A stretch of 35,505 nt of DNA from a bacterium. GTDB taxonomy: Bacteria > Vulcanimicrobiota > Vulcanimicrobiia > Vulcanimicrobiales > Vulcanimicrobiaceae. A program made the position numbers and the translations under genes. Where the stretch lies: assembly GCA_021790895.1 (NCBI GenBank), contig JAJYFM010000019.1, positions 1 to 35,505 of the forward strand, read 5' to 3'. Below the pieces are notes generated by a model, which worked only from the letters and a program-made list of their open reading frames with translations, was not told the DNA's origin and ran no database searches. Of this stretch, positions 2,101 through 11,280 are shown one piece after another. The stretch's first letter is position 1. Each line of letters begins with the position of its first letter.

Positions 2101-2592
2101 GTACCTACCCGCGTAATAACGTCCTTCCCCTCCCCGCGACCGTCATTTCCACGAGTCAGTTCAACCGGAAGTATCTAAACCATGGATTTCGACATAAAGT
2201 CAGCTCGACTTCTGAGAGGACTGCCTGCGGTGCTTCCCTCAGCGGGTCGGGATGAAAGACGCAATTCCCATCGATACGCTACAATCGGCTGTCGTTGGGA
2301 AGAGTTTTTAGGTCTACTTTGCGCTCCATAGGAAAGCGTACGACCTCTTCCCCGCCACCCCCTTTGACTGTTCAATGACAGGTATACGACGTTTCCGAAA
2401 CCTATGCTCGAGCTTTTTGGAGATTTCGGGGCGCGGCCAAGCCCGTTGGGAAACGGGAAAATGACGGGTAGAGCGGCGTCCACGCGTTTTCGATGAACGG
2501 GCAGGAAGAGGAGCCATGTCGCCGGCATATTAGTGGGTGAGTAAATCGCCTGCATCTTCCTATACGGGAAAGAGCCACGAAGGGAATAGACC
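2101..2592. other. Intergenic stretch without a supportable gene
   Basis: About 490 bases separate the antitoxin from the methyltransferase. Open frames exist on the minus strand here, but their translations are rich in Arg, Ser and Pro with no recognisable motif, and they lack good ribosome binding sites. I see no tRNA, no direct repeats of a mobile element and no clear promoter. It marks the left edge of the lower-GC block and could contain the insertion boundary. Confidence 0.4.
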
Positions 2593-3855
2593 GTGATTAC
2601 AACGTTCGAGCACTGGACGAAAGGGCGATCGCCGCATCTTCTCAGCACGAACTGGAAGGCAGAATCGCTTCCGTTCCAGCGCTGGCGTCACTTTAAGGAG
2701 GCATTCGCGCCGGAATTGGTGGCGCGCGCCGTCCGCGAAAGTCCCGGTCCTGTTCATCATTGCCTGGATCCTTTTGGCGGTTCAGGCACGACGGCCTTGG
2801 CATGTCAATTTCTTGGTGTTCGCCCGTCCACGATAGAGGTGAACCCCTTTCTCGCGGATCTCATCGCTGCGAAGCTTACGGAGTATGACACCACCGCGCT
2901 GTTGCGGGACCTTAGGTCAGTGATCATTGCAAGTCATAACATTCATGGTCGGCGTGAGGCTTGGGCAAGCCTTCCGCCAACGTTCGTTGAACCAGGCATC
3001 AACGATCGATGGATTTTCGACCGTGGCGTTGCAAATCGCCTATTCGCGCTGCGTACCGCAATATCAGATTTGAGGGACCGGAAGAGCAGGCGTCTTTTTA
3101 AGGTGTTGCTGGGTGGAATCCTTATCGAGGTAAGCAATGTAATTACGAGCGGAAAGGGTAGGAGATACCGTAAAAATTGGGCGCAACGTCGCTACGATCC
3201 GACTCAAGTAACCGAGCTTTTTATCGAGAACGCCGAATCAGCGATCGCGGAGGTCCATCAATTCTCCAATCGCCCCTGCCTGGAGCATGAGGTCTACTGC
3301 GGTGACGCACGTGAAAGACTTGACGCACTCCCCAGTGCAGACCTTGCCGTTTTTTCACCTCCCTACCCAAACTCGTTCGACTATACAGACGTCTACAACG
3401 TGGAATTGTGGGCGCTCGGTTATCTAACAAAGAAGGAGAATCGCCGGCTTCGCGAAGCGACTCTCACCTCACACGTTCAAATCGCTCGCGATTTCGCGGA
3501 AGCGCCGAGCTGCTCGCCGAAGCTCAGGCGAACGATGAGGCGATTGAATCTTCGCCGAGACGAACTCTGGAATAAATCCATTCCGGAAATGGTTGGCGGC
3601 TATTTTTACGACATGGATTCCGTTCTAAGTAAGCTCCAGCGTATTGTAGCCAGACGGGGCACCGTTTGGATGGTGGTTGGCGACAGTCAGTATGCCGATG
3701 TCCCTATTCGCGTTTCTGCGATCCTATGCGAGATCGCTGAGGCACAGGGCTGGGCGATACATCTCGTCGAACCATTTCGCTCGATGAGGTCCTCAGCGCA
3801 ACAAGGTGGGGAATACAAGTTGGGCGAGGACCTAGTAGTGCTCTCGAAAGTCTGA
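2593..3855 (+). CDS. SPPY-type DNA methyltransferase (N4-cytosine/N6-adenine class)
   Basis: The 420-residue product has the S-adenosylmethionine-binding motif I DPFGGSGTT at residues 59-67, followed by 'VRPSTIEVNPF' with the acidic residue that contacts the ribose. The catalytic motif IV SPPY lies at residues 255-258, followed by N-S-F-D-Y. SPPY, rather than DPPY, is most common in m4C enzymes, but the modified base cannot be decided from sequence. The stretch between motifs I and IV (about 190 residues) may hold the target recognition part. The GTG start at 2593 has AAGGGAA six bases upstream. The gene converges with the minus-strand nuclease gene, and their ends overlap by 24 bases. It is therefore likely the modification partner of that operon, protecting host DNA, or a self/non-self mark for it. 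Confidence 0.85.
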   Translation: MITTFEHWTKGRSPHLLSTNWKAESLPFQRWRHFKEAFAPELVARAVRESPGPVHHCLDPFGGSGTTALACQFLGVRPSTIEVNPFLADLIAAKLTEYDTTALLRDLRSVIIASHNIHGRREAWASLPPTFVEPGINDRWIFDRGVANRLFALRTAISDLRDRKSRRLFKVLLGGILIEVSNVITSGKGRRYRKNWAQRRYDPTQVTELFIENAESAIAEVHQFSNRPCLEHEVYCGDARERLDALPSADLAVFSPPYPNSFDYTDVYNVELWALGYLTKKENRRLREATLTSHVQIARDFAEAPSCSPKLRRTMRRLNLRRDELWNKSIPEMVGGYFYDMDSVLSKLQRIVARRGTVWMVVGDSQYADVPIRVSAILCEIAEAQGWAIHLVEPFRSMRSSAQQGGEYKLGEDLVVLSKV

Positions 3856-4926
3856 CCCAAGAGCCCTCCTTACGTTACGAAACTGCTTCGCGCTTGAGAA
3901 AAGATACCACAAGCCCATAATCACTGCCGCTTCCAGCGCGGAAGCACGTACCTCTTTGGAAAAAATATCCCCGCACGAATGGCTTGAGCGCATATCAAAA
4001 CAACAAAGCGTCGTCACTCGCGCCTTTTTGTCTTTAGCGTACTCGGACGCCTGGGTGATGCCGTCGGCAATCGCATCTATTGCCACACTTTCGCCGACCG
4101 GATGTCCGGTGTTCGAGAACGACCTCAGCACTTTAAGCTCCACCACTGCGTGGCAGATTTCTTTACTAACATCAATTGGATCGGCTTCTGCAATCACGAT
4201 ATCAATGCGCCCCGAATCCACATCGACTTCTGGACGAAGTATGCATGTCAGCAGATCGGCGGCGAAGCCAGCAACGAGAATCGCTTGTATAGTCTTTTCT
4301 GCTCGACGCCCTGGCATACACTTCGATGCCGTTGCCCATATGGGGAATGATGCTGCCTTTCGCGGCGTTTGCAGCGAACTGCGCCATACGCGGTCAATTA
4401 CGGCAAAGATTCGCTCCGCAGAAACGGTAACGCCGGACAGTTGGAAGAGGCAGCAATGATTCTCATGGGCAAGGCCTCGTGGATAGTAACGGAGCTCCTT
4501 TTCGCTCGTTCGTGGATCGAAAAGTAAAGCAGGCACGTCGCCAAGCGCAAGATCGTCGGTAACAAACCGGAAGACTTTGTCGAGGTTTTCTGGCTCACTT
4601 AGTTGCAAGAAATGGCCGCTCATAGCACTCTCACTAACGAACCAGAGTCTACCCGTCAGTTGCACAAGTCCGCTATTTAAAACGGGTTCTCGCTGCGTCG
4701 CGTGCCGCGATTCGGGCGAAGGCTTTAATAGGAATACCGCCGGCATCATCGGGTCGCACCCATTTGCGTCACGAGCCATACGAAGGTGGAGAGCTTTTGC
4801 TATGCTCCCAAGGAAGCGTTCCCAGCTTGGCATCCCGGCATCGGCACCGGTACCGGCTACCGCTGCTTTTACCGTCGCCCTAAAATCATCGCTTGCCCAC
4901 GGGCCTAGATTCTCAAGATCCTGCAA
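3832..4926 (-). CDS. Predicted PD-(D/E)xK nuclease, last gene of the defence operon
   Basis: I recognise no named family, but the C-terminal half carries the elements of a PD-(D/E)xK nuclease. There is a helix with a glutamate (RRAEKTIQAILVAG, about residues 207-220), then D242 in 'GRIDIVI', then E263-x-K265 in 'AVVELKVL', and Q292 in 'ITQASEYAKD'. This resembles the Q-x-x-x-Y element of this fold. The first 200 residues are unassigned. No signal peptide or membrane segment is visible. The ATG overlaps the end of the preceding gene by 14 bases, so the two are co-translated. In context it would be the DNA-cutting effector of the ATPase operon. The 3' end overlaps the convergent methyltransferase. 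The fold call rests on motif reading only. Confidence 0.65.
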   Translation of the reverse strand: MQDLENLGPWASDDFRATVKAAVAGTGADAGMPSWERFLGSIAKALHLRMARDANGCDPMMPAVFLLKPSPESRHATQREPVLNSGLVQLTGRLWFVSESAMSGHFLQLSEPENLDKVFRFVTDDLALGDVPALLFDPRTSEKELRYYPRGLAHENHCCLFQLSGVTVSAERIFAVIDRVWRSSLQTPRKAASFPIWATASKCMPGRRAEKTIQAILVAGFAADLLTCILRPEVDVDSGRIDIVIAEADPIDVSKEICHAVVELKVLRSFSNTGHPVGESVAIDAIADGITQASEYAKDKKARVTTLCCFDMRSSHSCGDIFSKEVRASALEAAVIMGLWYLFSSAKQFRNVRRALGSDFREHY

Positions 4927-5575
4927 CCGCGCGCTCCAGTCGGCCCTTCAGATGAGATACGTAAAGGTGAACCTTTTCCCCTGGCGTCGTGAGCCGCCGC
5001 GCATCTGTGAAATTCGCGAAGTAGCCCGCAGCATTTGCGCTGAAATTATCGTGCGCCCATTCATCGAAATCGATGACACTTCCAACGTCCACGCGCGGGT
5101 CCATATAGGTCGCGTCCTGTGAAATCGCCTGGTCGAGTTCGTCGTCAGATAGCACCGCCAGAGCAAAAAATAGCTCCCGTATGAACGTTGCGGACTGGGC
5201 CTCGTCTTGAAACGAATCGATCTTCCGAACGATCCGGCCGGCGAAACGAGGATTCAATCTGTAGGATCCTTCAAGACGCCAACCGGACAGATCATCCAGC
5301 ACGTGCGACACGCCAGATATGCTGACTACGCCAAGGCCCACCATTCGATCCAACTCGTATTGGATCTCAGGGTAAAATGGCCCGCCGCGCCTTTTAAGAA
5401 GCTTTCCATCGAGCGGGAACAATTGCCATACCGGGGCGAGAACGTTGGAGAGATACGCGGCGGCATGTAGCTGACCGATTCTTATTGGTACCAAGCCAGC
5501 TCGTTCGGCAGCATCAAGAATGGTGACTATCCGAACTCGTCGCTCAGCGCTACCGAGGTCACATGCTGCGATCAC
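4913..5575 (-). CDS. Middle-component-like winged-helix protein (ABC-3C type)
   Basis: This product of about 220 residues lies between an SMC-like ATPase and a nuclease, overlapping both genes. Residues near 25-90 include 'PIRIGQLHAAAYLSNVLAP', 'RGGPFYPEIQYELDRMVGLG' and 'VVSISGV'. That layout recalls the middle components of ABC-three-component conflict systems, with a helical part followed by a winged-helix-like strand pair. The remainder is helical and acidic (LSDDELDQAISQDATY). I chose the GTG at 5575 because it forms a GTGA overlap with the upstream stop codon. A longer in-frame start at 5614 would add 13 residues. It probably bridges the ATPase and the effector. The assignment is tentative, based on context and pattern. 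Confidence 0.5.
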   Translation of the reverse strand: MIAACDLGSAERRVRIVTILDAAERAGLVPIRIGQLHAAAYLSNVLAPVWQLFPLDGKLLKRRGGPFYPEIQYELDRMVGLGVVSISGVSHVLDDLSGWRLEGSYRLNPRFAGRIVRKIDSFQDEAQSATFIRELFFALAVLSDDELDQAISQDATYMDPRVDVGSVIDFDEWAHDNFSANAAGYFANFTDARRLTTPGEKVHLYVSHLKGRLERAVAGS

Positions 5576-7530
5576 GTGAGGAGTTTCTTTCGCGCGCGCT
5601 TGTACTCGTCCCAAAAATCCCGCACCGCGGCAGTCTTCTCAGCAATCTCGAAAAGATCGACCACTCGTGCGCTGCGCTCTTTCCTTGGGATCGAATACAC
5701 GAGTTCGGAGACAAGGTCCGACGCCACAAGATTCGACGTCACGACGAGACGGTTGTCGCGCGCGCCGGCAAACTCAGCGAGCACGCCGCCGGCTCTCTTG
5801 GCAAAGACCATATCGAGTGACGACTCCGGCGCGTCGATGACGAGGGATCCCGACTGCGTCCCCGTCGCCACGTCAATGAGCGCCATACGAAATGCAAGAT
5901 CAATGAACTCGCGTTGGCTCTCCGAAACCTGATCGGGACCGGACCTACGAACGGGCTCTATGAAACCGGCGCCGCCCATGTTGAGCTCAAACGCTGGAAA
6001 ATCGAACTTTTCGCCCATCTGACCGAGTGTGTCCCGCCGCGGCTGCCAGACAAGCGAGCAATCTTCAACAAGAAATCCTTTCGCATACGAATGAAACGAC
6101 CGCTTAACTCGATCAGCAAATTTTTGAATCTCCAGGTTTTTATCGTCCACGAAGTTTTTGAAGGCAGCACGCAGGTTCGCTACTTCCGTGCGGGACGCAT
6201 CTTCGCGTGCTTTCCAACCTGCCAACTCTGAGAGCTTTCCATGGAGAATCGCCTCTTTCGGCGGAAGCTTTGCGACGAGCGCGTCGATCGTGCGACTTCT
6301 GTCAGTGATAGCCACATTTAGTTCGTCGATAGTGCGACTGATTTCTTGGTAGTGATTGTTGGCGTCGCGTAGTTCCGCGTCTGCCGCTGAAGCTTCCCTG
6401 TCTGCTTGATCGAGACGATTTCGCAATCCTTCCATTTGCTTGTCGCTGACTGACGCCCTCGATAATATCTTTAAGGGCGTCGCGCAGAGGGCGCACTGGT
6501 TCCGGCTAACTCGAGACGCAAGCAGCCTTGCCGCCCTCGTCGCATCTGAACCACAAACAAGGCAATGCCCATCTCCGACTAGTTGCCCTATAATGTAGCG
6601 GGTCGTCTCTGATTGAGTTGGAAATTCTGCGGTAATTGAAATTAGTTTCGCGCGCTCGAGCTCTCTGTAACGTTCTTCTCTCGCTTGTGCACCGTTCATT
6701 TGGCGAAGACGCGCCGCTCGTCGCTGCGCGTCTGCAGCATCAATTTCCGCGTTTAGCCGTTCGCGTCGTGCCATATCAACTTCTTGGAGCCCGTTCAGAG
6801 TATCAAGTTCGGTCCTCACTTCAGGAAGCGTTGCTACCTGCCGCGCCTGGACGGCCACGTCTCTCTCGAGGCGATTTCTAACAGCGCTGAGGTTACGGAT
6901 ATGACTGTCGAGCCTCAGAATCGCTCGTTCGTCCTCCGCCCACGTTCTTGCGTCATCAACTGACAAGAATAACGCTCTTAGTAGTTCTCGTTGTGCGGAC
7001 GCGTCCCAAACGAGCTCTTGTCGAGTTTCGAAATAAAAAACCAGCTGTTGCAAAACTAGCATGAAGTCACCGAATGACCAAACGCCGACGAGCCGCTTTA
7101 ATTCGTTCTTGAGATTATCCTCAGTGGGCTCAATGGGGTTGCCCCCGATGACGGCCGATAAGAGCGAAAGATCACGTAAAGACCGTTCCACGGTGACGTC
7201 GGTCTGGGCTATGCGAAAAGTCAGTGTGGCGGACGCATCCCGCGCGCCGTCCGCAGTGCGCTTTGCAAAAATAAGGCGCCGGTCGCGTGGTATAGAGGTC
7301 TCTTGCAATTCCGCTGTCCCGAGTGCGCGATACGCTAACGCTGGCACGTCGTAAGGCCCTGTGAACATGCGGTAGAGGATCGTGATAATGGTCGTCTTTC
7401 CAAGTCCATTAGCGCCAATAACGAGCGTGAGTCCGGAATGGAAATCCACGTCGAGTCCTGGCTTTCCCGTGCCGGGAAACAGACCGTAGTTTTTGACGAC
7501 CAACCGCTCCAGGAGTGGAAGATTGATCAA
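5572..7530 (-). CDS. Rad50/SMC-like ABC ATPase with two CxxC motifs
   Basis: The 652-residue product has Walker A GANGLGKTT at residues 39-47 after an N-terminal 'LVVKNYGLF' strand typical of RecF/SMC proteins. A central helical region of about 300 residues follows. It contains C-L-V-C near 322 and C-A-L-C near 345, spaced like a zinc ribbon or a Rad50-type zinc hook. The C-terminal half carries a signature-like VSESQREF near 535, Walker B LVIDAPESSLD near 563 with its D-loop, then 'VVTSN', where many ABC ATPases place a histidine. Such proteins sense or load on DNA and use ATP to control a partner nuclease. The start is a TTG with a weak ribosome binding site; no ATG or GTG exists upstream before an in-frame stop. 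It is the fourth gene of the minus-strand operon. Confidence 0.8.
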   Translation of the reverse strand: MINLPLLERLVVKNYGLFPGTGKPGLDVDFHSGLTLVIGANGLGKTTIITILYRMFTGPYDVPALAYRALGTAELQETSIPRDRRLIFAKRTADGARDASATLTFRIAQTDVTVERSLRDLSLLSAVIGGNPIEPTEDNLKNELKRLVGVWSFGDFMLVLQQLVFYFETRQELVWDASAQRELLRALFLSVDDARTWAEDERAILRLDSHIRNLSAVRNRLERDVAVQARQVATLPEVRTELDTLNGLQEVDMARRERLNAEIDAADAQRRAARLRQMNGAQAREERYRELERAKLISITAEFPTQSETTRYIIGQLVGDGHCLVCGSDATRAARLLASRVSRNQCALCATPLKILSRASVSDKQMEGLRNRLDQADREASAADAELRDANNHYQEISRTIDELNVAITDRSRTIDALVAKLPPKEAILHGKLSELAGWKAREDASRTEVANLRAAFKNFVDDKNLEIQKFADRVKRSFHSYAKGFLVEDCSLVWQPRRDTLGQMGEKFDFPAFELNMGGAGFIEPVRRSGPDQVSESQREFIDLAFRMALIDVATGTQSGSLVIDAPESSLDMVFAKRAGGVLAEFAGARDNRLVVTSNLVASDLVSELVYSIPRKERSARVVDLFEIAEKTAAVRDFWDEYKRARKKLLT

Positions 7531-7643
7531 TTTGGATGCAACTCTTGTAAGAACGTTACCACAAGCGGAGTCCTTCCGATGATTCGTTCTAGGTTATCGG
7601 CTCCATTCCATGCTTATCCTGCCATTCGGAGTTTCGTGGAGCC

Positions 7644-7661
7644 AGGCGGAGCAGCCCGCCT
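7644..7661 (-). other. Intra-operon hairpin after the GHKL gene
   Basis: A perfect 6-bp stem (AGGCGG/CCGCCT) with a 6-base loop starts in the stop codon of the GHKL ATPase gene. It sits at the head of the only sizeable gap in the operon (about 130 bases). No T-tract follows on the minus strand, so it is more likely a partial terminator or an RNA-stability element than a full stop. It could set different amounts for the two halves of the operon. Confidence 0.4.
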
Positions 7662-9900
7662 ATGCGGTGACCTGCTCTGGTGCGGATTCGTGCAATTTGC
7701 TATCCCGGTCCCAGTCGGCGTCGCTAACTTGCGCGCGATGCAAACGCGGAAGCAACTCTTGGAGCTTCCTCGAACGCTTTGCTTGAAGGGCGTCAATGTC
7801 TAGTGCACCGGCCGGAAGTCGCTCTGCTTCTTTGTTGAGCGCTTGTTGCAAAGCGACATCGGCCACGGCTTCTGCAACCATCATGCGCGCAGGTAAGCGA
7901 TTTTGGAACTGGAAGTCCGGAGCTGGACCAAAATATCTACGCGCAGCCGGGTGTGTCGCATTCACGCGAACAACGATTAAATCTTTCGTCTCTTCCCAAA
8001 CTGCACGATGAGCTCCCGGAATGTCTTCAATACGTATTTCCAGACGCGGCCCACGCGCATCGCGAACGACCACATGCGCACTTGCGTGTAGGCGTTTGTT
8101 TGGTGTGGTTGCTGTTATTTGCGCATCACCGCCGTGTTGGATGCCCTCGATAGTTACATCCGCCTCAAACCATCCTTCCGCAACGCGCTCGAGCTCAATA
8201 CGATACTCGCGAAGCTTCACGGCCTTCTGGTCACTGCACGAAAGAATAACGTCGGTGCCAATTTCTTGCACAATGTTCGCGGGGGCTAGCAAGAGAAGGC
8301 GCCGCTCCCTTCCGGTCGCTACGCTGTACTCCCGGCTCGCGAATTCGAAGTCGCCGGGTGGCGAAGCCTTAGGTAGTTCGACAGGTTCGACGACGGATAC
8401 GATCACCTCAGCGGTGTGGCCCGATGTCTTTCCGTCGAGCAGTAATTTTGCGGCAATCAGGGCTGAACCAGTACCGAAGCCTGCCTCCACGCGCAACGAT
8501 GCTTGCGAAAAATCATCGTCAAGAGACACGGCCGGCAACTCCACTGATCGCGGAAGATCAGCAATCGCGTCGGCTGGATCTTGATCGACATCAATTTCGA
8601 CCGTAGCAGCTTTGCCGTTTGTAACATCTGCTCGCGCGCGAACGGTAAACGATGCACGTTGTCCGTGCTCCAAGACGCGCGTTGTCGGAATTATTTCAAA
8701 CGCCGGCCGCCGTATTCCAGGCTCGGCGAGAAGTGTATCGATTTCTTGTTCCTGCTCAATCGTCCATTTCACCACCTCTCGCGCAGTAAGTTCACTGCGG
8801 CGTTGGGTCTCACTCGTCTCGTGGGCGCTAGCGCCGGCGCTATCTGCTGCACTCTTTAAGTATTCGTCAACGATGGGCCTCACAGCGGCACGCAGCGCTC
8901 GATATGCTGGGTGGGTCTTCTCGAGCCCATTTCTTATGCGACTGATGATAGGGAAGGGATTGGAGTCGGGGGGGTCTTCGTCGCGTTCCTCTAGGTCATC
9001 GAGCTCGCGCGTAAGTTCGTCAACGGCGTCGAACTCAAGCCATCCGAAAAGCCGATTTGCATATGGGTGGTTCTCGGAGCCAAATAGCGTCGACTCGTGG
9101 CACGCTGGTCCGCTCGTTATAACAATGCCTCCAAGGCGATAAACGTCAGAGTCCTCGTTAAACGGCTCGCTCGCGACGTAGAGCTTGAGCTTCGCCTCGT
9201 GATAACTGTTCACTTCGATAGCACCGTCATAGACTGTTTTGACCGCCTTCGGCGCGACGAATCGTACCGTCTCCTCTCGATCTGGATAGGAGAGGATAAC
9301 CGTACGATCGGGATTCTCCATTATCCGACGAAGAGCAACGGCGTTTTGCAACTGGCGTTTGAGGGAGTCGAATTGCTTTCGTGCGATGTTTTTGCGGCAA
9401 AGTATTGTTACGCGCGTTCCGCTCTTCGTGACCCCGATGTCTTTCTTGAACGCTTCGCTGGACTTCTGTCGCGTGTTTTCCAAAATCTGACCGTTGCGAT
9501 CCGCCTTAACAACTATGGCGTCTCGACCGCAAATGGACTCGAATTTTACACCGCCGAAAATGGCGAGATCCTTTGCGCCGCGTCCCCTATTTCCGCGCTT
9601 CCTTTCGCCGTGTTCATATCCACTCGTACGCTCACCGGTACTGATTAGCTTTTTCATTACGTCGGCAGCGGGAATTCCACACGCTCGATCCGACACAGAA
9701 ACTGTCCAGTCGCCGTCCGGGCCCTTTGCGGAAACTTTTATTAGTATTTTACCTGGTTGAGCAGCGTATGCGTCGTCGGCGTTTGTGATGGCTTCGATTA
9801 AACCGAGGATGATGTCACCGCGCATTGCGCCGGCGGCATCCTGCCGTCTTGCACGTTTGGTATAGATGAACTCATCAGGCGAGTCAGAGCGATTTTTCAT
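7660..9900 (-). CDS. MORC/MutL-like GHKL ATPase with beta-rich C-terminal half
   Basis: The N-terminal 200 residues form a GHKL (gyrase/Hsp90/MutL-type) ATPase. The N-box is LIEAITNADDAY (E36 and N40), the Mg/ATP motif G1 is SDRACGIP (D71, G75), and the G2 lid is GNRGRGAKDL at 103-112. A transducer-like region follows to about residue 360. A beta-rich half with repeated strands that look Ig-like (about 390-660) comes next, and the end is helical. GHKL ATPases of this kind close as ATP-driven clamps around DNA, and MORC-like members have been described in bacterial restriction-modification operons. The ATG overlaps the previous stop codon (ATGA), so expression is coupled. I infer a DNA-clamp or topology-sensing role beside the ABC ATPase encoded next. 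Confidence 0.8.
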   Translation of the reverse strand: MKNRSDSPDEFIYTKRARRQDAAGAMRGDIILGLIEAITNADDAYAAQPGKILIKVSAKGPDGDWTVSVSDRACGIPAADVMKKLISTGERTSGYEHGERKRGNRGRGAKDLAIFGGVKFESICGRDAIVVKADRNGQILENTRQKSSEAFKKDIGVTKSGTRVTILCRKNIARKQFDSLKRQLQNAVALRRIMENPDRTVILSYPDREETVRFVAPKAVKTVYDGAIEVNSYHEAKLKLYVASEPFNEDSDVYRLGGIVITSGPACHESTLFGSENHPYANRLFGWLEFDAVDELTRELDDLEERDEDPPDSNPFPIISRIRNGLEKTHPAYRALRAAVRPIVDEYLKSAADSAGASAHETSETQRRSELTAREVVKWTIEQEQEIDTLLAEPGIRRPAFEIIPTTRVLEHGQRASFTVRARADVTNGKAATVEIDVDQDPADAIADLPRSVELPAVSLDDDFSQASLRVEAGFGTGSALIAAKLLLDGKTSGHTAEVIVSVVEPVELPKASPPGDFEFASREYSVATGRERRLLLLAPANIVQEIGTDVILSCSDQKAVKLREYRIELERVAEGWFEADVTIEGIQHGGDAQITATTPNKRLHASAHVVVRDARGPRLEIRIEDIPGAHRAVWEETKDLIVVRVNATHPAARRYFGPAPDFQFQNRLPARMMVAEAVADVALQQALNKEAERLPAGALDIDALQAKRSRKLQELLPRLHRAQVSDADWDRDSKLHESAPEQVTA

Positions 9901-10559
9901 TGCTTAACCGCCGCTTGGCTACGAATGGCTCTCAGGAATCTTATCAGTTCGTCGTCTTGCCAAAATTCAGCCATAGCGTTTAATCGACTGAAGCGCTCGT
10001 CCCAGACACGCTTTGACGAGTTTGGTAAGCAGTTAAGCAGATCAGCGACCTCCCATTGCTCAAATGACACGCTGCCGTTTTGCCAACGCTTGAATAGTTT
10101 GTGGGCCCTCATCAGGCGCAGTTCCGCTTGCGACGGGCGGGCGGTAGTGCGGGTACGCGAAACAACGGCGTCTTGCGACCTGTCGTTTGTAGCCGAGCTC
10201 CGCTCCCGGTAATACTTTATCGCTTCGTCAGCGCTCGAGATATCGCGTTGCAATATGACACGGGCCGCATCAACTGCTTCCTTTACCCCCGCGCCTGTTA
10301 GCAAATATGTTTGCCTATGTTCGATAACCCGTGGCTCCTCGGTCTTGCGATCCTTCCAATGCTTAAATGCTTGCCGCGTCGTCTCAAGTGATGGGTAGTC
10401 GTAGCGATTCCAACGGAAGCGTGTCGGTGCAAGGCGGTAGGCATCAACGGCGATGTCTTCGAGATCAACGTGACCGGTTGCGCCACCGTGAAGAAGGAGG
10501 GCAAGAAGGACAACTTGTCGATTGTTAATTTCTTTATCAGACTGGCTTTGTGACGGCAT
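9897..10559 (-). CDS. Uncharacterised winged-helix-like protein of the defence operon
   Basis: I do not recognise this 220-residue protein. Residues 12-90 contain a helix-rich start (NRQVVLLALLLHGGATGHVD), then 'YPSLETTRQAFKHWKD', then a strand pair 'VIEHRQTYLLTGAG'. This pattern fits a winged-helix DNA-binding domain. A charged linker (about 120-145) leads to a helical C-terminal half rich in tryptophan and arginine (RLMRAHKLFKRWQNG). The ATG is preceded by AAAGGAG 10 bases upstream, three bases after the HARE-HTH gene ends. Its own stop overlaps the ATPase start. It probably acts as an adaptor or DNA-binding subunit for the GHKL ATPase. No catalytic motif is visible. Confidence 0.6.
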   Translation of the reverse strand: MPSQSQSDKEINNRQVVLLALLLHGGATGHVDLEDIAVDAYRLAPTRFRWNRYDYPSLETTRQAFKHWKDRKTEEPRVIEHRQTYLLTGAGVKEAVDAARVILQRDISSADEAIKYYRERSSATNDRSQDAVVSRTRTTARPSQAELRLMRAHKLFKRWQNGSVSFEQWEVADLLNCLPNSSKRVWDERFSRLNAMAEFWQDDELIRFLRAIRSQAAVKQ

Positions 10560-10562
10560 GGG

Positions 10563-11117
10563 CTACGTACTCCTTTTGACGCGCCGGCGGCGCCGGCTCT
10601 TGCGAGTTTTTTTCACTTTGTCGGCCTCGCCCGTCTGCGATGAGCTCGCGAGATGGTATGTGCCTCTTGCAGAACGCTCGAAGCGATAGCTGTACCTCGC
10701 GTTCGTTAGAATGGAGAGTAGCGTTCCGGCGGCGTCTTTCCCACCAAGAGCGACGCCACGATCCAGCACCAAATCGGTCAACGCTCGATAGTGGAGCGGC
10801 GCATTGTCATTTTCAGTAAACACCGCGCAGACGGCTTCGATTATGCTATCGCCCGTCGCCTTTGGGCTCTCGCTCTCGTCTACGGTCATTGGCGAAATCC
10901 CAATCGACGCTGCTGCTTGTGCATCACCCAGAAGATTAGAGATGGCGACGAGTGCGTTTTCACAGATCGCAATTAGAGAAGAAGTTTCTTCTAGGGCGCG
11001 CTGTCGCTCAGTGCGCTCCTGGAAAAGAGAAGCGAGTTTCGAGCGAAGCTGTTCGCGCTCTTCCGCGAGCGCCAGGCGACCGTTCTGGGAAAGCGCATTG
11101 TAAACATTGCCATACAT
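10563..11117 (-). CDS. Coiled-coil plus HARE-HTH domain protein, first gene of the operon
   Basis: The N-terminal third is a charged coiled coil (EEREQLRSKLASLFQERTER). The second half fits a HARE-HTH domain: 'SIIEAVCAVFTENDNAPLHY', then 'LTDLVLDRGVALGGKDAAGT', then 'YRFERSARGTYHLA'. This domain is known from ASXL proteins and from bacterial proteins associated with restriction-modification genes. It is thought to recognise DNA or chromatin modification states. The last 20 residues are a strongly basic tail (KKTRKSRRRRRVKRS) suited to nucleic-acid binding. An upstream TTG at 11156 would add 13 residues, but that TTG lies in what looks like a -35 box, so I prefer the ATG at 11117, which has no ribosome binding site and may be almost leaderless. 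It could sense methylation or regulate the operon. Confidence 0.7.
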   Translation of the reverse strand: MYGNVYNALSQNGRLALAEEREQLRSKLASLFQERTERQRALEETSSLIAICENALVAISNLLGDAQAAASIGISPMTVDESESPKATGDSIIEAVCAVFTENDNAPLHYRALTDLVLDRGVALGGKDAAGTLLSILTNARYSYRFERSARGTYHLASSSQTGEADKVKKTRKSRRRRRVKRST

Positions 11118-11127
11118 CGTATGATGC

Positions 11128-11156
11128 AAGTTATATAAACTTTGTGACGCTGTCAA
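11128..11156 (-). promoter_or_regulatory. Probable promoter of the defence operon
   Basis: On the minus strand a perfect TTGACA (11156-11151) is followed 15 bases later by TATAAC, or 17 bases later by TAACTT. Transcription would begin within about 10 bases of the ATG at 11117, so the message would have little or no leader. That agrees with the lack of a ribosome binding site there. Confidence 0.55.
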
Positions 11157-11182
11157 GCTATTCGCAGTTTAGGTTTATATAA
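11131..11182. repeat. 10-bp inverted repeat in the shared divergent region
   Basis: TTATATAAAC at 11131-11140 and GTTTATATAA at 11173-11182 are exact reverse complements, separated by 32 bases. The left copy covers the -10 region of the defence promoter. The spacing and symmetry suggest an operator for a dimeric regulator, perhaps a product of the operon. Both arms are AT-rich in an otherwise GC-rich genome. Confidence 0.55.
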
Positions 11183-11280
11183 AATTAATGGAGCAACGAC
11201 GTGTCGAGGTCGCACCACTTCAGTTCGGCCGCCGCGCCTTTTTGTCGAGTCGCCGTCTCTTCTGGAATCCGCTGCGACTC

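Follow-up and report, generated by a model that had tools for sequence, protein, structure and literature searches.

We identified, in a 35,505-nucleotide stretch of DNA from a bacterium of the family Vulcanimicrobiaceae (contig JAJYFM010000019.1; hereafter, the window), an operon that is led by a HARE-HTH winged-helix protein with a very basic tail and also encodes a second winged-helix-like protein and a GHKL ATPase. In our estimate, there is about an even chance (roughly 0.5) that the HARE protein serves a GHKL clamp-ATPase module, encoded on a mobile conflict island, as its DNA-reading and DNA-anchoring subunit. Human chromatin proteins are the best-known carriers of the HARE-HTH domain, and comparison of homologous loci suggests a newer and more general point, namely that HARE proteins with a basic tail pair with GHKL clamp ATPases.

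The HARE-HTH protein

The HARE gene (10563..11117, minus strand; 184 amino acids) runs from an ATG at 11117 to a stop at 10563. This start is preferred because the longer TTG start (11156) sits within a promoter-like TTGACA. In the AlphaFold2 model, residues 11-71 (10905..11087, minus strand) form a long helix, predicted to be a coiled coil, with block pLDDT values mostly of 83-94 that drop at its end, followed by three helices and a two-strand wing, with pLDDT of about 52-66 in the wing region; a Foldseek search with this low-confidence model gave no significant match. The predicted winged helix spans residues 86-158 (10644..10862, minus strand), and the HARE-HTH signature positions P-x-H-Y, GK, F and G-x-Y are present (alignments A4, A6 and A7). 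The last 25 residues (10566..10640, minus strand) include 12 K/R and carry a net charge of +10, and this basic tail, which was part of the original prediction, is conserved among the orthologs.

The HARE-HTH assignment had also been predicted, and a profile search supports it for the orthologs but not for the window protein alone, which has no match at E ≤ 1 in Pfam, NCBIfam or PADLOC; likewise, a search of its whole genome with PF05066 yielded no match. An identical operon in L021, a Chloroflexi metagenome-assembled genome, encodes an ortholog that scores 32.7 bits against PF05066 (E 9.9e-8), over the curated cut-off of 25.9 bits; this ortholog is 30% identical to the window protein and has the same three parts, a coiled coil, a winged helix and a basic tail. 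The cut-off is also exceeded by the ortholog in L053 (27.5 bits), likewise part of a HARE-B220-GHKL operon (B220 being the second winged-helix-like protein), and by the HARE proteins of L134, L137 and L139, and an E-value of 1 or less against PF05066 was obtained for 11 of the 13 aligned family members. Furthermore, in genome G123, the A3 profile, built from two sequences, and PF05066 land on the same place (E 6.2e-4 and 8.3e-16, respectively). Among PDB chains, the sole relative found with a profile of the winged helix only was RNA polymerase delta, itself a HARE-HTH protein, at an E-value of 0.25-0.83 that is not significant alone; the full-protein A4 profile retrieved mostly coiled-coil noise. 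Through its orthologs, the window protein thus clearly appears to belong to HARE-HTH at the family level.

The domain is shared, by profile, with the PF05066 proteins, including ASXL, HB1, the RNA polymerase delta subunit and HARE-REase fusions, and the family aligns with bona fide members. In contrast to these, the window protein lacks a nuclease fusion, combines an N-terminal coiled coil with a C-terminal basic tail, and has a GHKL ATPase as its partner. When fused to nucleases, HARE-HTH has been proposed to read modified bases (PMC10853773), and cytosine rather than adenine modifications are considered the likelier target (PMC11037411).

The GHKL ATPase and its winged-helix-like partner

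The operon is tightly packed, with HARE as the first gene, as originally predicted, separated by 3 bp from B220 (9897..10559, minus strand; 220 amino acids), the stop codon of which overlaps the GHKL start (7660..9900, minus strand; 746 amino acids) by 4 bp. B220, recognized by a six-frame profile, has an N-terminal winged-helix-like region and is a common partner of GHKL genes; 3 of the 45 members of its family match HVO_A0261_N, the best at 3.9e-5. Of the 133 GHKL relatives detected across 84,980 species genomes, 80 were kept, and a six-frame profile search located B220 in 51 of these 80 GHKL-bearing loci. The B220-GHKL pair is spread over many bacterial and archaeal phyla and mostly occurs without HARE, which is present in 2 of the 80 loci; HARE therefore seems to be optional to B220-GHKL. 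A conserved small ORF of 71-93 amino acids (RFKRLAS.RTN..L.K...LGN.SN...YEY) lies upstream of or near B220-GHKL in several phyla, being upstream of B220 in L015, L022, L047, L051, L064, L070 and L077.

The GHKL protein comprises a Bergerat ATPase domain, a transducer domain, beta domains and C-terminal helices. It matches PF02518 at 7.7e-8, and residues E36, N40, D71, G75, G103 and G108, in the Bergerat N, G1 and G2 motifs, are invariant among 51 aligned sequences. By sequence alone, its nearest solved relatives are Hsp90 paralogs. The structural model (mean pLDDT 87.5) retrieved topoVI-B, ParE/GyrB, SMCHD1, MutL, MORC and Hsp90 in Foldseek with E-values of 1e-13 to 1e-10, and the alignments mostly extend over ~370-430 columns, which indicates an S5/transducer domain beside the ATPase domain. 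Thus, the predicted architecture is that of a gyrase/MutL/MORC-type two-domain clamp or gate. We also considered a histidine-kinase-like regulator and rejected it, as the matches of the model are to two-domain clamp ATPases rather than to kinases.

Prokaryotic MORC and paraMORC GHKL ATPases act in restriction-modification contexts (Iyer 2008, PMC2292703), with a superfamily II helicase in about 70% of MORC neighborhoods. The two-domain GHKL and S5-type ATPase is common to those systems and ours, and some HARE-GHKL loci (L138 and L221) likewise include a DNA methylase; by contrast, the window operon has no superfamily II helicase, and it has extra beta domains and the B220 partner. No helicase family was found in the Pfam scan of the gene block in the window, and HARE-HTH does not come up in the passages of the MORC/paraMORC account that were considered here (PMC2292703). 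Our search of the open literature found no HARE-GHKL link and no paper naming both HARE-HTH and GHKL.

Basic-tailed HARE proteins and GHKL neighbors

The HARE-B220-GHKL operon is found in the window and in six other loci (L021, L053, L133, with a truncated GHKL, L135, L142 and L248), and L220 has a variant order, HARE-GHKL(divergent)-B220. Directly 3' of the operon in L248 is a gene for a SEC-C-motif-like protein of 681 amino acids (L248:5319-7364), a possible extra component. Other basic-tailed HARE genes adjoin GHKL-type genes with matches below the cut-offs, just so in L137 (PF02518, 3.7e-5) and also in L138 (PF13589, 1.2e-3); the GHKL-type proteins of L134 and L221 belong to one family with that of L138 (phmmer 3e-22 and 1e-36, respectively). 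The GHKL-type neighbors of tailed HARE genes in L139 and L140 have N and G2 boxes, and the L140 protein matches the candidate-defense PADLOC model PDC-M33A at 1.4e-9. Comparison of the profile of the main GHKL family with the partners in L139, L220 and L221 was not significant, and we therefore treat these as separate or divergent families recognized by their motifs.

Across 38 HARE homologs, a GHKL-type neighbor (a gene on the same strand and no more than 3 kb away) accompanies all 13 basic-tailed proteins (tail with a net charge of +5 or more) and none of the 25 tail-less ones, counts to be read with a charge threshold that was chosen after the sequences were inspected, with sequences that are not independent of each other, and with five neighbor GHKLs (L137-L140 and L220) that entered as their own queries, supported by motifs or by profile matches under the threshold. 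GHKL had been the route to the window, L021 and L053, and the tail-less HARE proteins of Acidobacteria constitute a single clade in a constant neighborhood; without the GHKL-ascertained loci and with this clade collapsed, the association is 10/10 versus 0/12 (Fisher p 1.5e-6). A fresh later sample gave 1/1 for tailed HARE (L248, where it precedes B220-GHKL) and 0/3 for tail-less HARE. These comparisons support the view that tailed HARE proteins pair with GHKL ATPases from at least four families, a pattern far broader than the window. The link to ATPases that had been predicted is thus upheld as a functional link by gene association, specifically with GHKL.

The tail-less, coiled-coil HARE proteins of Acidobacteria (L226 and L228-L239) share a fixed neighborhood that includes a ~339-amino-acid ORF and a TatD-like ORF. 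From this context, they likely represent a housekeeping branch of HARE.

The main rival explanation, which we regard as unlikely, is that HARE is an operon autoregulator, that is, a repressor that would silence the GHKL module and respond to damage or infection in the manner of CapW, CapH+CapP or CapK+CapS. The position of HARE as the leading gene fits this role, as does the A/T-rich palindromic repeat TTATATAAAC, which occurs twice (11131-11142 and 11175-11186) in its upstream region (11118..11190, minus strand); the two copies are possible operators. The region also has a TTGACA followed by TATAAC; promoter and terminator scans gave no signal above chance. Moreover, a GHKL kinase and a winged-helix repressor are known to control immune operons as a pair (PMC13373217), and for CapK and CapS, as here, an immunity-like island encodes a GHKL-family protein with a winged-helix DNA-binding protein beside it. 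However, CapK is an HTH-STAS-GHKL kinase and CapS a STAS-wHTH protein (PMC13373217), whereas the GHKL protein here is of the gyrase/MORC clamp type with a transducer domain, not a kinase, and Pfam scans of the HARE, B220 and GHKL proteins gave no STAS match. Neither the association of one HARE type with at least four GHKL families nor the link between the tail and GHKL would be expected of a plain repressor.

Two cassettes in one insertion

The gene block comprises two adjoining cassettes in one insertion. In three congeners, the DNA runs straight across the site, with the equivalent of window positions ~2003-2140 joined to ~11268, beside mraZ and the dcw cluster; hence, ~2141-11267 (~9.1 kb), with all seven genes, is an insertion. 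No terminal repeat was found at its ends. At the left border (1484-2100), we observed a Doc/Fic toxin (PF02661, TIGR01550) and an AbrB-like antitoxin ORF (1867-2100), and DNA similar to this border adjoins mraZ in congeners.

The second cassette begins ~130 bp beyond the HARE trio, compared with near-zero gaps inside the trio, with an SMC/Rad50-like ATPase (5572..7530, minus strand; 652 amino acids; AAA_23, 1.2e-9) that matches PADLOC LmuB (PDLC03859) at 5.4e-16 over residues 9-572, nearly the full length. It is followed by a middle protein (4913..5575, minus strand), the GTG start of which overlaps the SMC stop (a longer ORF, of 233 amino acids, opens at 5614), and by a PD-(D/E)XK-like protein (3832..4926, minus strand; 364 amino acids) with a match to PDDEXK_9 at 0.0024, below the cut-off. 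The latter has a homolog (1.3e-39) in Burkholderia stagnalis (L148), with which its GRIDIVI...VVELKV region aligns, and the D...ExK pattern is common to both. An N6/N4 DNA methyltransferase gene (2593..3855, plus strand; PF01555, 1.8e-9; PADLOC MTase_II, 2.4e-45) converges on this cassette. Like Lamassu and other ABC three-component systems, the cassette combines an LmuB-like SMC ATPase with a middle protein and a variable third gene; unlike in Lamassu, the middle and third proteins match no PADLOC LmuC or LmuA model, and a DNA methylase is a constant companion.

The L148 locus unites the methylase with homologs of the SMC, middle and PD-(D/E)XK-like proteins, and an Azospirillum locus (L149) has the methylase, SMC and middle protein with another third gene; the middle-protein homologs occupy the same place in the gene order, and both loci are without HARE or GHKL. 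The constant partner of the methylase thus seems to be the SMC cassette, and we rejected the methylase as the HARE module's own partner. In L148, a second pair of SMC and middle-protein genes adjoins the cassette, and the L149 cassette lies beside genes that appear Tn7-like by inspection.

These loci bear on the improbable reading that all seven genes constitute one restriction system, in which HARE would read marks placed by the island methylase and license the GHKL, SMC and PD-(D/E)XK-like proteins against unmarked DNA. Such a system would account for the presence of all the genes in one insertion and for the adjacent N6/N4 methylase, HARE and GHKL genes in L138 (Chloroflexota) and L221 (Actinomycetota), two loci that differ in which of the first two genes comes first, and it would agree with the proposed role of HARE-HTH as a reader of DNA modification (PMC10853773, PMC11037411). 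However, the SMC-methylase cassette occurs without HARE and GHKL in L148 and L149, HARE-B220-GHKL occurs without methylase or SMC, and the ~130-bp gap separates the two cassettes. In particular, no methylase lies beside HARE-B220-GHKL in L021, L053, L133, L135, L142 and L248, so that the original argument, which took the nearby methylase as a sign that HARE senses methylation and gates the ATPases accordingly, is weak for the window and unsupported in its original form. The argument nevertheless regains some force, and methylation sensing by HARE is possible, given the methylase that adjoins HARE and GHKL in L138 and L221 and the location of the window methylase inside the same insertion.

Among 148 genomes, the GHKL family was found in four, including the genome with the window, and the SMC-like ATPase in that genome only; neither was present in any of the nine further congeners examined. 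No relative turned up in viral contigs searched with the GHKL and HARE alignments, and a tblastn search of plasmids detected no HARE homolog. This patchy distribution of GHKL and the location of the genes in an insertion argue against a further reading, which we find quite improbable, namely that the two cassettes are independent and the HARE-B220-GHKL module acts on the nucleoid or on DNA topology, without a role in defense. The same holds for the recombinase-like genes near HARE in L133, L135 and L138 (by sequence inspection) and for the one PADLOC candidate-defense match among the partner GHKLs. In its favor, B220-GHKL is widespread, with ordinary neighbors in some loci, and the tail-less acidobacterial HARE genes sit in a housekeeping-like setting. 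Thus, of the originally predicted defense operon, the operon stands, within a block that resolves into two cassettes, whereas the defense role is one that we infer.

Proposed mechanism and implications

Under the preferred reading, that of HARE as the DNA-reading and DNA-anchoring subunit of the GHKL clamp-ATPase module, the coiled coil would dimerize HARE, and the winged helix would contact DNA, where it might prefer one modification state. The basic tail, which was originally suggested to bind DNA without sequence preference, would keep the protein on DNA or recruit the ATPase. HARE could then load or license the GHKL protein, which, given its gyrase/MutL/MORC/Hsp90 architecture, might close an ATP-dependent gate around DNA, and B220 would serve as a second winged-helix, DNA-binding subunit. 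The module, on a mobile island beside a separate SMC/methylase cassette, would trap or silence invading DNA. The domain assignments, the conserved operon, the association of the tail with GHKL and the insertion are established by the analysis, whereas we infer the physical complex, DNA binding, clamp closure and defense function from sequence and gene context.

The three-gene module has no nuclease or other effector of its own, which, like the usual absence of HARE from B220-GHKL loci, counts against the preferred reading. In eukaryotes, silencing involves HARE-HTH domains as well as MORC/SMCHD1-type ATPases, and bacterial conflict systems are believed to contain relatives of each. Possibly, although we consider this rather doubtful, the tailed HARE proteins represent an unrecognized class of conflict systems in which a chromatin-type reader loads diverse MORC/MutL/gyrase-like clamps onto foreign or wrongly modified DNA and silences or compacts it without a dedicated nuclease, which would parallel, in bacteria, the reader-guided MORC/SMCHD1 silencing of eukaryotes. 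The bacterial HARE-GHKL module, in which the same type of reader appears to be combined with at least four GHKL families, would provide a compact test system for asking which feature HARE recognizes and how such a reader governs a clamp ATPase.
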